Part shown: positions 8,035-13,908 of the stretch, piece by piece
Layout of the letters: every line of letters starts with the position of its first letter
How positions within the stretch are numbered: the stretch's first letter is position 1
NCBI GenBank assembly: GCA_020726025.1
Contig: DYTH01000005.1
Span: 1 to 51,390 of the forward strand
Direction of reading: 5' to 3'
Source of the DNA: Syntrophus aciditrophicus
GTDB taxonomy: Bacteria > Desulfobacterota > Syntrophia > Syntrophales > UBA5619
DNA length: 51,390 nucleotides
The notes under the pieces: generated by a model
The model's input: only the letters and a program-made list of their open reading frames with translations
What the model was told of the DNA's origin: nothing
The model's database searches: none
Translations under genes and position numbers: made by a program

Positions 8035-9090
8035 CTACAGAGGCCCCTTTTTCCCCTGATGAATGATGCGCGCGTTTTCTATAAGGCTGCCGAGGATCAT
8101 GGACGGCAGCATGCCGCCGTGGGCGGCCTGTTCAAAAAAGAATGACGAGGGGGCCATCCCGGATGCGGAGTTGGGGTCGGTGATCAATATACGGCCATCC
8201 TTCAGATAAAACCCGTCGATGCGACCGTAGGAGCGAAATCCGAGTGCGCGAAAGGCGCCGATCGCCTCTGCCTTGATCTTCTTGACAACGTCGGTGGAGA
8301 TATTTTTCGGCGGCGTAAATTTTCGGCAGCGCCCGGGCATATACTTGTCGTCGTAGGTGAAATAGTCGCTCTGCGGTTCTATTTCGGTCACTTCAAGCGC
8401 CCGGCAGCCTCCGTCTTCTTCAACGATGATCGTTGAAAATTCAATCCCATCGAGGAATTCCTCCACCAGGACGGCCCTGTCCCATGTAAGGGCGGCCTCC
8501 ATCCCGGCGGAAAGCTCCGCTTCGTTTCGGACATGGGTGACGCCGATGCTTGATCCTTCCCGTGGCGGTTTAGTGAAACAGGGAAAACCGATGGTTTCCA
8601 ATATCTTACGGGTGATTGCTTCAGAATCTTCGCGCCATTCTTTTTCTTGTACGAGGACGCTTCCGGGCGTCTTGAGCCCCTCAGACTTAAGGATCATCTG
8701 CTGAATGTGCTTGTCCATTCCGAGAGCCGAGGCCAGAACCCCGGCGCCCGTATAGGGTATCCGGAGCAGTTCGAGAAGCCCCTGGACGCAGCCGTCCTCG
8801 CCGAATTTTCCGTGCAGCGAGATGAAGGCAAAGTCAATCTCGTCGCGCAGTCCCTCGTAGAAAACGCGGCGCGCTTCGCTTTCAAGCCTCTCGGTAATGT
8901 CTTTCGTCGTATTCTGCGATATGAGCTGCCACGGAAGCACCCAGAGCTGCCCCTTTGCATCCATGAAGACGGGGAAGGGCTCATACGCGTCTCTGTCCAG
9001 ATTGTCGTAAACATTCCTGCCACTGTTCAGGGAAACTTCCCGTTCCGACGACATCCCGCCCAATATGACTCCTACCCTTAATCTTTCCAC
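8035..9090 (-). CDS. ddl: D-alanine--D-alanine ligase
   Basis: VGVILGGMSSEREVSLNSG; LHGKFGEDGCVQGLLELLRIPYTGAGVLASALGMDK; ATP-grasp features. Confidence 0.92.
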   Translation of the reverse strand: MERLRVGVILGGMSSEREVSLNSGRNVYDNLDRDAYEPFPVFMDAKGQLWVLPWQLISQNTTKDITERLESEARRVFYEGLRDEIDFAFISLHGKFGEDGCVQGLLELLRIPYTGAGVLASALGMDKHIQQMILKSEGLKTPGSVLVQEKEWREDSEAITRKILETIGFPCFTKPPREGSSIGVTHVRNEAELSAGMEAALTWDRAVLVEEFLDGIEFSTIIVEEDGGCRALEVTEIEPQSDYFTYDDKYMPGRCRKFTPPKNISTDVVKKIKAEAIGAFRALGFRSYGRIDGFYLKDGRILITDPNSASGMAPSSFFFEQAAHGGMLPSMILGSLIENARIIHQGKKGPL

Positions 9091-9138: not shown

Positions 9139-11097
9139 TTACAAATCCCAGAAAAAGGTCACGCCGCTTGTCGGAAAGATCCACGCATCGTCGGCGATAG
9201 TCAGACGCACGGATTCACCCGGAACACGTGTAGCCTCCGGTGTATGGTGTTTCCCGGAGAAGAAGCTGACGTCCCTGACGTTTTTGATATCCGTTTTCGC
9301 ATAGTTGAAAGAGATGCTCACCCCCCGTGTCGGATAAACGATGTAGGCGGAAAAAATCCGGGAATCCATCCGTTGCCTTGTTTCGGTCTCTATCTCGAAG
9401 CGGGCGATAGTGTTGATTTTTTCCTGCAGCTCTTCCAAGCCGTAAACAAGCTCCAGAGCGCCGCTTTTAGAGGATTTTTCGAGAAGAGGGAGGTTCTTTT
9501 CGTCAATGCTGATTTTCTTGACGACAAAATCCTCTTCGGGGTTGCCGTTTTGCTCTGTGTTCAAAAGCCATCGGTATTCGCAGAGGCTGTTTTCAAAAAG
9601 TTCGGCCAGGTGTTTCTCATCGAAGGCGCACCCGATCATCAGACGGGAGTCCCTCAATTCCTTGGAGTATTCGATATGCGTCGTCACCTTGAAGAAGTCC
9701 TTGCGTGCAGGCGCCGCTGCGATTTCGGAGGCGGTGAACGCGGAAAATGTGACTTCGTAACGAAAATCGCTTCGGAGATCAAGCCGTCGGTCGTTTTTAC
9801 CGAACAGTATTTCAAACATCTCGCTGTAAATGGCGTTCCCCAGCTCGTCATTTCTGGCCCGCGCCTGAAGGCAGCTCCGGATGATCCCGTCGATGCGGCT
9901 GATCGATCTCTCCTCTCCGGGGATGAAAATCCGGCGGAGGCGCGGTTCCACACGATCGGGCATTCCGTCGCGGCAGAAGACCCGCGGCGCCCTTTTGCCC
10001 AGAGCGCAAAGGATTTCGTAGCCAATCGAGTGCGACCGGACGGCTATTTGCTCAAGGGAAATGGTTTCTTCACCCTGACTTCCAAGAAGAACGACTTCAT
10101 CGCCGACATGGCAGCCATCCACTGCGCTTATGTTGAGCGTACACATGTCCATCGAGATTCTGCCGACGATGGGGGTCCTTTTCCCGCCGACCAGCGCCTC
10201 TCCCTGGTTGGATAGCAGCCAGCCCAGACCGTCTCCGTAGCCGACCGGGATCGTCGCGATCCGCGTGGGCCGCCGTGTAATGAAGGTGCGGCCGTATCCG
10301 ATTCCGTAACCTTCCGGAAAATCCTTGATCAGGGCGATCCGGGTCTTGAAACTCATAACGGGACGCAAATGAATCTTGTGCGTTGTTTCCGTTGAGGGGT
10401 GTATCCCGTAGGTGATAAGCCCCGGCCTGACCAGATCGAGATTACACTGGGGGTAGTTGATGATGGCGCCGCTGTTGGATATGTGGCGAATGGGAATATC
10501 GATGCCGAGGGAATCGATTTGACCGAGGAGTTTCTGGAATTCTTCCCACTGCAACTGGTTGTAGAAAGAAAGGATTTCGCTCTCGGAAAAGTGGCTGAAA
10601 AGACCTTCCAGCTTCAGATTCGGCATGACCGCTATTTCCCGGATTCCCTGAAGGGCCTCTTTCAGGAGGATGCCGCCCCGCCCCATGCCGGTGTCAATCT
10701 CGACGTGGACGGGCGTGATTACCCCGGCGCTGCATGACTTTTCCTGAAGTTCGCGTGCAAAATCAAGCGCCGAGATGGAGGGGATCAGGCTGTATTTGAT
10801 GATCTGTTCTATTTCCGGAATCGTGGCGGGGGAGAGGATGACGACCGGCGCCGTTATTCCGCTGACGCGAAGCTGAACACCCTCGTCGGCATTGGCGACG
10901 CCGAGGCAGGATGCGCCGTTCTTGAGGGCTGCGTTGGAAATCTCTATGGCGCCGTGCCCGTAGCCGTCCGCCTTGACGACCTGCATAATCTGGACACCGG
11001 GACCGACCTGTTTTTTGATTGCCTCCCAGTTGGCGGCAAAATGGCCGAGATCAACCTCTACCCAGCTTCTGTACTGTGTGGTTTCCTGAAAAGTCAT
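9139..11097 (-). CDS. alr: Alanine racemase with ~277-aa C-terminal extension
   Basis: PLP lysine motif VVKADGYGHGA, GYGRTF, PVGYGDGLGW, GRISMDM; canonical racemase ends near aa 375 (PRVFCRD), ORF continues uninterrupted to aa 652. Confidence 0.9.
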   Translation of the reverse strand: MTFQETTQYRSWVEVDLGHFAANWEAIKKQVGPGVQIMQVVKADGYGHGAIEISNAALKNGASCLGVANADEGVQLRVSGITAPVVILSPATIPEIEQIIKYSLIPSISALDFARELQEKSCSAGVITPVHVEIDTGMGRGGILLKEALQGIREIAVMPNLKLEGLFSHFSESEILSFYNQLQWEEFQKLLGQIDSLGIDIPIRHISNSGAIINYPQCNLDLVRPGLITYGIHPSTETTHKIHLRPVMSFKTRIALIKDFPEGYGIGYGRTFITRRPTRIATIPVGYGDGLGWLLSNQGEALVGGKRTPIVGRISMDMCTLNISAVDGCHVGDEVVLLGSQGEETISLEQIAVRSHSIGYEILCALGKRAPRVFCRDGMPDRVEPRLRRIFIPGEERSISRIDGIIRSCLQARARNDELGNAIYSEMFEILFGKNDRRLDLRSDFRYEVTFSAFTASEIAAAPARKDFFKVTTHIEYSKELRDSRLMIGCAFDEKHLAELFENSLCEYRWLLNTEQNGNPEEDFVVKKISIDEKNLPLLEKSSKSGALELVYGLEELQEKINTIARFEIETETRQRMDSRIFSAYIVYPTRGVSISFNYAKTDIKNVRDVSFFSGKHHTPEATRVPGESVRLTIADDAWIFPTSGVTFFWDL

Positions 11098-11318
11098 CGA
11101 TAGCCCTGTATCTGAAAGCGCAGCTTGATGTTCATAAAGCGAAGCTTAATACTCATAAAATGGAGGAAATTGCAAAACTCCCTGTTCTGTCATTCCCGCG
11201 AGGTTTCTGGCGGGAAAACGAAGTTTAATGTTCATAATCCACATTGTAACCATCTGAAATCATGGATGCCCGACAAAAGCATTCGGGCATGACAACACGT
11301 TTTGCAATTACCTCAATG

Positions 11319-11622
11319 GTAACTATTCAGCATAATCAACAGGACATTAAAAAAGCCTGTCATCCCCGAATGTTTCTATCGGGGATCCATAAAGTCAAAA
11401 TCTGGATTATGAACATTAAACTTGATGGTCTCGTCAAAAGTCGATTTTGCCCCTTTTTGTCATTCCGTGCTTGACACGGAATCCAGTGAATTTAGTCGCT
11501 TATGGATTCCGGCTTTCGCCGGAATGACGGTTTTTGGACTTTTGACGAGTTCATCAAACTTCGTTTTCCCGATTAAACCCTCGGGAATTACAATCATTCT
11601 GAAAAAGGTGCTGAATAGTTAC
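11319..11622. repeat. Second copy of the GTAACTATTCAGCA element, interrupted by a different palindromic element
   Basis: TIRs at 11319-11332 and 11609-11622; internal sequence TGTCATCCCCGAATGTTTCTATCGGGGAT ... TTCCCGATTAAACCCTCGGGAAT matches the 1730-1861 copy on both sides of the insertion. Confidence 0.8.
11407..11557. repeat. Inner MITE-like element with CTCGTCAAAAGTC / GACTTTTGACGAG inverted ends
   Basis: 13-bp perfect IR at 11430-11442 and 11537-11549, extending to ~25 bp with mismatches; two internal TCATTCCG.../...CGGAATGA hairpins; exact outer boundaries uncertain. Confidence 0.75.
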
Positions 11623-11661
11623 ATAAAATGCATGCAAATTTAACATAGTGAGATTCCGCCG

Positions 11662-13908
11662 TTATTTTTTCGTCATGGTGAAGACGCCGTCCCAGTCCTC
11701 TCCGGGAGAGTTTTCCTTGTAGTCCTCGCAGCGCTCGATATAGAGCCTGGATGGGTAATCGTCGGGCCGCAATTCCAGCGCCCTGGTGAAAGCCGTCGCC
11801 GCTTCATCCCACATACAGTTTCTGTATGCATTCAGACCGTCTTCAAAGAGCGCTGTAAAGGCCTGCCACTGAGGCTTGTTCTTCATTTCGCCCAGCAGTT
11901 CAAATATCCGGACCGGACGTTTTTTCCCTTTTACACGGACGGCATCCAGTTCCCGGCAGAAAAAGTCATCCTTGATCACATCGTGGGTGAATTCGCTGAT
12001 AATGATGTTTGTGCCGTACTCCTTGTTGGTTCCTTCCAGCCGCGAGGCGAGGTTCACGCTGTCTCCCATCACCGTGTAATCAAAACGCATTTCCGATCCC
12101 ATGTTTCCCACAACCATATCGCCCGTGTTGATGCCGATGCCGATGTTGATGGGCGGCCATCCCTCACTTTCCCATTTCACCTGCAGGCGCTTCAATTCAG
12201 ACATCATTTCTAACGCGGTGAGGCAGCATCGCCGGGCATGGTCGGGCTGGTCAAGCGGAGCACCGAAAACGGCCATGATCGCATCGCCGATGTACTTGTC
12301 CAGAAGGCCGTCGTATTTGAAGACGATATTGGTCATCGCGGTCAGGTATTCATTGAGAAGCTGCACCAGTTTTTCCGGGGAGAGTTTCTCCGAAATGCTC
12401 GTAAAGCCCCGTATATCGGAGAACATGACGGAGAGGTTCTTTTTGTCGCCACCCAGCTTGAGCTTGTCGGGATCTTTCAGAATCTCGTTGACAACGGAAG
12501 CTGTCAGGTAGTACTGGAATGCCCCTCTTATCTTTTTCTTTTCCCTCTCCTCGGTCACATAGCGGTAAACGGTTATCCCCAGATAGGCCGTAATAATGGT
12601 CAGCGCTGGATATACAACGTTCATCCAGATATTGAAGGCGACAAAAATATACCTGTTTATGATGATGAAAAGAGAAAGAAGCAGGAGGGTAAACACCACG
12701 CCCGCGACGGCTTTCATTCTGGGGAGTAAAATCCCCACCAGAAGGCCGGTAAAAATGATGACGCACAGATCGATAAACAATATCAATCCGGAATTAATCA
12801 GAAAATTTTGATGGAGAATGTTGTCGATTACGGTTGCATGGATCTCGACTCCGGGATAAACGGAGCTGAAGGGGGTGTTTCTCATATCGTAGATCCCGGT
12901 GGCCGTCGCTCCCACAAGGGCGATTTTCCCGCTGATTTTTTCAGAAGGGATCCGGTCTGCCAGGATATCGGAGGCGGAATAATGGGGAAATGTATTCGCG
13001 GGGCCGAGGTAATTGATGAGAAGCCTTCCATCTTCATCGGTCGGAACCTGAATTTTATCCAGGCTGATGTTTTCAACGCCAATACCGGATATGTTGAGGG
13101 TCAGCATCGGCCAATCCAGGTACTGGACAAGGAGCGAAAGGGCCAGGGATGTGTAGTAGTTTTCGCCAAACTTGATTGTCAAAGGAGCCCAGCGTATAAC
13201 GCCGTCAGTATCGGGGAAGGCATTAAAATATCCACTGTTTTCGGCAGCATCGGATATCTCCGGCAGGTTAGGCTGCACTGCGTAGGCCTTTATAATATAA
13301 GAATCATTCACTTCTTCTCTTTTTCGGACCATTGTGAAGCGGCTGTTGGCGATTTGTTCTTCCGAGGCTTGGATTTCCTCTGGCTTCAGATGGCCTACCT
13401 CCTTGGAACTGATATGAAAAAAGTAGCCGAGGGTTACATTTTGAGATTTCTTTATGGCGTCGGCAAGGGCGGCGTCGGTGTCCGCCTCTTGCTTTCTTTT
13501 TCCCAGAATGGCGGCAAAATCATTGTTCCCGCTGCCGGTTTTCCGCAAGTCTGTCATGAGTTTTTCGATTGTCTTCAGAGAGGAGTTTTCATCTGGTTCG
13601 GCAAAGACGATATCGAAGCCGACGACCTTTGCTCCGAGTTCCTTGAGCTTTTCTGTCAGCGCGGCAATCGTTGTCCTTGGCCAGGGCCATCGCCCCAGCT
13701 CGCTCAAGCTTTTTTCATCGATAGTCACGATGAAAGTCTCGCCGCCCGAGGGCATTGCCCCTCGTGATACGGTGCGCAGGTCGAGTGCCTTCAGCTCCAT
13801 GAAACGCAGAAATCTGGGATCCAGAAAGAATAGAACGATCGCCAGAAAAATAACCAGCAAGGCTATTTTCAGGGGCGAAGGGGATAAAAAATTCTTCAGG
13901 GCTTTCAT
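11662..13908 (-). CDS. CHASE2 sensor domain / class III adenylate (guanylate) cyclase
   Basis: N-terminal CHASE2-like extracytoplasmic region, TM segments, cyclase core VMFSDIRGFTSISEKLSPEKLVQLLNEYL...AVFGAP...IGINTGDMVVGNMGSEMRFDYTVMGDSVNLASRLE. Confidence 0.9.
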   Translation of the reverse strand: MKALKNFLSPSPLKIALLVIFLAIVLFFLDPRFLRFMELKALDLRTVSRGAMPSGGETFIVTIDEKSLSELGRWPWPRTTIAALTEKLKELGAKVVGFDIVFAEPDENSSLKTIEKLMTDLRKTGSGNNDFAAILGKRKQEADTDAALADAIKKSQNVTLGYFFHISSKEVGHLKPEEIQASEEQIANSRFTMVRKREEVNDSYIIKAYAVQPNLPEISDAAENSGYFNAFPDTDGVIRWAPLTIKFGENYYTSLALSLLVQYLDWPMLTLNISGIGVENISLDKIQVPTDEDGRLLINYLGPANTFPHYSASDILADRIPSEKISGKIALVGATATGIYDMRNTPFSSVYPGVEIHATVIDNILHQNFLINSGLILFIDLCVIIFTGLLVGILLPRMKAVAGVVFTLLLLSLFIIINRYIFVAFNIWMNVVYPALTIITAYLGITVYRYVTEEREKKKIRGAFQYYLTASVVNEILKDPDKLKLGGDKKNLSVMFSDIRGFTSISEKLSPEKLVQLLNEYLTAMTNIVFKYDGLLDKYIGDAIMAVFGAPLDQPDHARRCCLTALEMMSELKRLQVKWESEGWPPINIGIGINTGDMVVGNMGSEMRFDYTVMGDSVNLASRLEGTNKEYGTNIIISEFTHDVIKDDFFCRELDAVRVKGKKRPVRIFELLGEMKNKPQWQAFTALFEDGLNAYRNCMWDEAATAFTRALELRPDDYPSRLYIERCEDYKENSPGEDWDGVFTMTKK

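Follow-up and report, generated by a model that had tools for sequence, protein, structure and literature searches.

Alanine racemase (Alr), a classic antibiotic target, is to our knowledge normally a stand-alone enzyme of two domains that has no dedicated regulatory domain. An Alr-type catalytic domain is joined to another module in MurF-Alr (PRK11930) and in VanT, where the extra part is an N-terminal ligase and an N-terminal membrane domain, respectively. Such a combination is also encoded in the window, by which we mean the whole stretch of 51,390 nucleotides analysed here, one contig of a draft genome in 149 contigs. The alr gene of the window (9139-11097, minus strand) begins with ATG and runs through 652 codons in a single frame, with no internal stops, to a stop codon at 9139-9141; a complete racemase part (aa 1-374) is followed by an extension of 277 aa (aa 376-652, 9142-9972). 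The parts of the gene and its neighbours are as follows:

11662-13908, minus strand: gene for a CHASE2-class III nucleotide cyclase, upstream of alr (PF05226, PF00211)
9976-11097, minus strand: racemase part of alr, aa 1-374 (PF01168/PF00842, TIGR00492)
9793-9972, minus strand: linker and two-helix segment of the extension, about aa 376-435, with helices predicted at aa 397-413 and 417-432 (conservation; AlphaFold2, placed with low confidence)
9499-9792, minus strand: first predicted beta-rich unit, about aa 436-533, with CEYRW at aa 506-510 (AlphaFold2, pLDDT mostly 85-97)
9142-9498, minus strand: second predicted beta-rich unit, about aa 534-652, with YPTRG at aa 588-592 and W-x-FP-x-SGV-x-F-x-W at aa 639-650 (AlphaFold2, pLDDT mostly 75-95)
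8035-9090, minus strand: ddl, D-Ala-D-Ala ligase of 351 aa, GTG start, 48 bp downstream of alr (PF07478/PF01820)

Judged by its sequence, the catalytic part is an ordinary biosynthetic Alr (TIGR00492; PF01168 and PF00842), sharing the two-domain fold and all catalytic residues within aa 1-374. The Pfam domains of the racemase stop at aa 373 (PF01168 at aa 15-234, PF00842 at aa 247-373), and TIGR00492 scores 339.9 bits over aa 11-374, exceeding its curated cut-off of 168 across the whole catalytic fold. K42, R140, R224, Y268, M316 and D317 are all present and invariant in 35 of 35 homologues from the order; from what is known of Alr, we take K42 to be the PLP lysine, with the catalytic tyrosine and the substrate/PLP arginines presumably among Y268, R140 and R224. 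The ORF and both sets of family models thus bear out the initial annotation, which had described a canonical racemase that ends near aa 375 and is followed in frame by about 277 aa; its placement of alr directly upstream of ddl likewise holds, the downstream gene being confirmed as ddl by Pfam.

The extension had been called unassignable, and searches of aa 376-652 against Pfam, NCBIfam, PHROGs, PADLOC and PDB sequences indeed gave no convincing match. The initial annotation had allowed for a well-described accessory domain of Alr, and the family and PDB searches returned none. Matches to PHROG, PADLOC and Pfam entries at E-values of 0.005-0.2 occurred in one or two members only, formed no consistent family and were taken as noise. 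In addition, a search of titles and abstracts in the non-subscription literature found no published description of such an Alr extension nor of Syntrophales and alanine racemase together. On sequence grounds, the extension is a domain absent from the libraries searched, attached to a catalytic part that is already known.

Modelled on its own with AlphaFold2 (23 sequences; mean pLDDT 78.9, pTM 0.75), the extension is predicted to adopt a two-unit beta fold, in which two low-confidence helices (pLDDT 35-50) precede two beta-rich units mostly at 75-97. The full-length model (pTM 0.48) reproduces the beta units and is poor for the racemase C-domain, owing to the shallow, order-only alignment, and for the helices; with pLDDT below 50 at aa 339-435, it is too poor there to show reliably where the extension sits against the racemase. 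The structural comparison that the initial annotation had suggested yielded weak neighbours. Foldseek against the PDB placed M1 aminopeptidases, an OST subunit and pentameric channel ectodomains at E-values of about 1e-4, all with TM-scores to the query of at most 0.38 and identities of 5-12%. What the predicted fold has in common with the M1 aminopeptidase N-terminal beta domain, the yeast/human OST subunit and the channel ectodomain is a multi-stranded beta architecture, the matched parts being those we presume from known architectures, such as the N-terminal part of the aminopeptidases. The extension shares no motif with these neighbours, and its best TM-score to the M1 aminopeptidase N-terminal fold, 0.38, lies below the value of more than 0.5 required for assignment. 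The modelled likeness is therefore one of architecture and not of membership, and we regard these proteins as analogous only.

Conservation within the fusion is highest in the linker and helical segment, whose mean pairwise identity is 0.76 over aa 376-436, compared with 0.685 in the racemase and 0.545 and 0.599 in the two beta units. Residues invariant in 35 sequences cluster in CEYRW, YPTRG and W-x-FP-x-SGV-x-F-x-W. They include C490, C506, E507, Y508, R509 and W510 of the first beta unit as well as the YP and RG of YPTRG, where T590 is kept in at least 90%. C409 is invariant in the same 35 sequences, as are C490 and C506; the most divergent copy (G040/L067) has Ser in place of C409 and keeps the other two cysteines. 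No His or Asp is invariant among the conserved extension residues of the 35 sequences. An origin of the two beta units by internal duplication was rejected, as their profiles show no similarity to each other.

Across the whole order, a profile of the extension (A1, built from 23 sequences) detected it as an in-frame continuation of the racemase in 139 of 155 genomes, among them 90 of the 92 of high quality, and in all 53 genera; with the extension alone as query, 37 of 41 relatives gave a match, comprising 26/26 high-quality genomes and 24/24 genera, and full-length matches showed 42-67% identity. The order carrying the fusion is probably Syntrophales. Fusion frames are nearly always about 650-780 aa long, the exceptions being genes cut by a contig end or a frameshift. 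Order genomes with no match or a partial one, searched with PF00842, either had no alr in the assembly or had an alr that ends at the contig end (for example L066, L068, L070-L072 and L074), and none held an extension-free alr. Two frames that look shorter (G430/L050 and G462/L073) break inside the racemase and not at the junction, as expected of single-genome frameshifts. Among relatives, PF00842 found one alr in 56 of 61 genomes, two in none, and alr in 41 of 41 high-quality genomes; with at most one match per genome, the extended enzyme is the only Alr-family member present. Neither the order nor the phylum searches found a free-standing or paralogous copy of the extension. An error of sequencing or assembly that joined alr to an unrelated frame, which the initial annotation had considered, can be dismissed for practical purposes, since the same in-frame fusion recurs across 53 genera and other genera and families keep the frame at 49-67% identity over the whole extension.

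The survey of taxa proposed at the outset thus shows an order-wide fusion that went undetected outside the order among the genomes searched. The sensitive search covered the phylum of the window: none of about 380 genomes outside the order carried the extension, and in a sample of 395 genomes of the phylum matches at E-values of 0.001 or less came only from members of the order. A lenient search (E up to 5, 247 genomes) added matches at E-values of 0.003-0.7, short weak pieces, some with stops, which were taken as chance. Outside the order, at 29 checked loci whose alr has no extension, just 1-15 residues follow the racemase fold, and most PF00842 matches there fall within frames about 366-500 aa long, besides one of 866 aa (G141) and a few shorter ones that are probably cut. 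Searches of viral contigs and of phage and plasmid records yielded no relatives of the extension. A wider scan of 84,980 species with peptide patterns, a low-sensitivity method that reaches close relatives only, returned one locus, on a contig labelled Syntrophus aciditrophicus, a species assigned to Syntrophales by NCBI.

The ancestor of the order gained the extension in a single event, and no loss has been seen since. In an IQ-TREE phylogeny of 59 Alr sequences, built from the racemase part only, the 30 extended sequences form one side of a branch with support of 100/100, which is present in 100% of 200 bootstrap trees, and this separation implies one gain without loss. The extension is under purifying selection of the same strength as the racemase: between closely related pairs its dN/dS, calculated from the separate dN and dS values, is about 0.05-0.16, similar to that of the racemase, with one example pair (0.022/0.353 versus 0.020/0.326) having the extension as low as the enzyme. 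In addition, the distances of the two parts correlate with r = 0.86.

That the extension arose once with no loss seen, is always fused to the sole Alr and is under strong selection implies a function tied to the racemase; since it has neither an invariant His or Asp nor a match to any enzyme family, a non-catalytic module is favoured. Most of the proteins that the model resembles structurally are beta modules with a binding or structural role. Our preferred reading, to which we give slightly better than even chances, is that of an accessory, non-catalytic domain through which the only Alr of the order is regulated, docked or localised; we infer its non-catalytic nature, its regulating or docking role and its binding of something. 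The conserved helical segment might join or pack on the racemase, while the tandem beta-rich units would offer a ligand or partner a conserved face that is aromatic and charged (CEYRW, YPTRG, W-FP-SGV-F-W), and this contact could tune or place the production of D-Ala for peptidoglycan. A more specific and more doubtful proposal, which we nevertheless take seriously, is a new domain family confined to this one order, which would be the sensor of a signal from the cell wall or from metabolism and exert allosteric control over alanine racemase. If true, control of D-Ala supply would be built into the enzyme itself, and in a single bacterial order.

The initial annotation had proposed a regulatory or partner-binding domain in D-Ala-D-Ala supply. 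That the extension serves D-Ala supply is plausible, given that it sits on the sole alr of each genome under strong purifying selection; the specific link to Ddl is weaker, because the extension is equally well kept in ten loci where no orthologous ddl comes after alr (L017, L018, L019, L026, L033, L034, L037, L039, L040 and L060). These loci also tell against a docking domain that would hold D-Ala-D-Ala ligase beside the racemase and channel D-Ala to it, which we consider unlikely even though an orthologous ddl directly follows alr in 36 of the 46 order loci with enough flank, mostly within 100 bp and across most families. Outside the order, alr and ddl are adjacent without the extension in L077 and L085. 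The upstream neighbour invites a similar argument, namely that the extension senses a nucleotide made by the CHASE2 cyclase, whose gene lies directly upstream of alr in 28 of the 46 loci. This is very improbable, as the other 18 loci keep the extension without the cyclase, a cyclase-alr pair outside the order (L090, where we read mlaE-like and ABC-ATPase-like frames after alr from their translations) has no extension, and no family that binds cNMPs was matched. These order loci lacking one or the other gene, together with the extension-free pairs outside the order, show that neither ddl nor the cyclase is strictly tied to the extension.

Explanations that look to the protein itself fare no better than that of a Ddl dock. 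A pure module of oligomerisation or stability, providing dimer-dimer or intrachain contacts with no regulatory input, would fit the helical segment being the most conserved part and its helices being unsettled in isolation, as expected if they need the racemase or another subunit; yet both beta units carry invariant polar and aromatic clusters beyond what a plain stabiliser would need, and we hold this reading to be about as improbable as docking of Ddl. Still less credible is a second enzyme, that is, an extension with its own activity in a bifunctional fusion like MurF-Alr of other bacteria. Single-copy fusion to an essential gene and the invariant residues, including C490 and C506 with their retention in the most divergent copy, speak for it, but the extension lacks a match to a catalytic family and an invariant His or Asp, and its predicted all-beta units look like non-catalytic modules.

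Some further features of the neighbourhood were seen. Downstream of alr in several members of the order (L005, L007, L009, L010, L016, L029, L035, L059 and L062), the first ddl is followed in tandem by another ddl-like gene, whose product shares about 44-70% identity with the Ddl of the window over the part seen. At the locus end of L018 (f14), near an alr without orthologous ddl, lies a distant Ddl homologue with 31% identity to that of the window, perhaps a replacement. The spacer between cyclase and alr (11101-11660) is about 560 bp long in the window, where L003 and other relatives have some tens of bp, and holds one copy in the window of a palindromic GTCATTCCGGCGAAAGCCGGAATCCA element together with related-looking fragments.

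An uncatalogued domain thus sits on the single-copy Alr in every genus of the order, under selection as strong as that on the enzyme. It represents a lineage marker for the order and a new family for domain databases, and with this fusion one can ask in a concrete instance whether regulation or scaffolding of D-Ala supply takes place at the level of proteins.

Among solved structures, the nearest Alr chain (4y2w) covers aa 13-379 of the query, and none of the 49 matched Alr-family chains passes residue 382, whereas the Alr of the window has 277 aa more at its C-terminus. Assignment to the described fusions was rejected on score: the MurF-Alr model PRK11930 reaches 306.5 bits against a cut-off of 804, over the racemase part only, and the VanT serine/alanine racemase models reach 313.7 against 460 (vanT-G) and 196.4 against 900 (vanT-CELN). 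In addition, the racemase begins at aa 11, which leaves no room for the membrane domain of VanT. In MurF-Alr and VanT the extra part precedes the catalytic domain, whereas in the Alr of the window it follows it and is, as predicted, beta-rich, matching neither.
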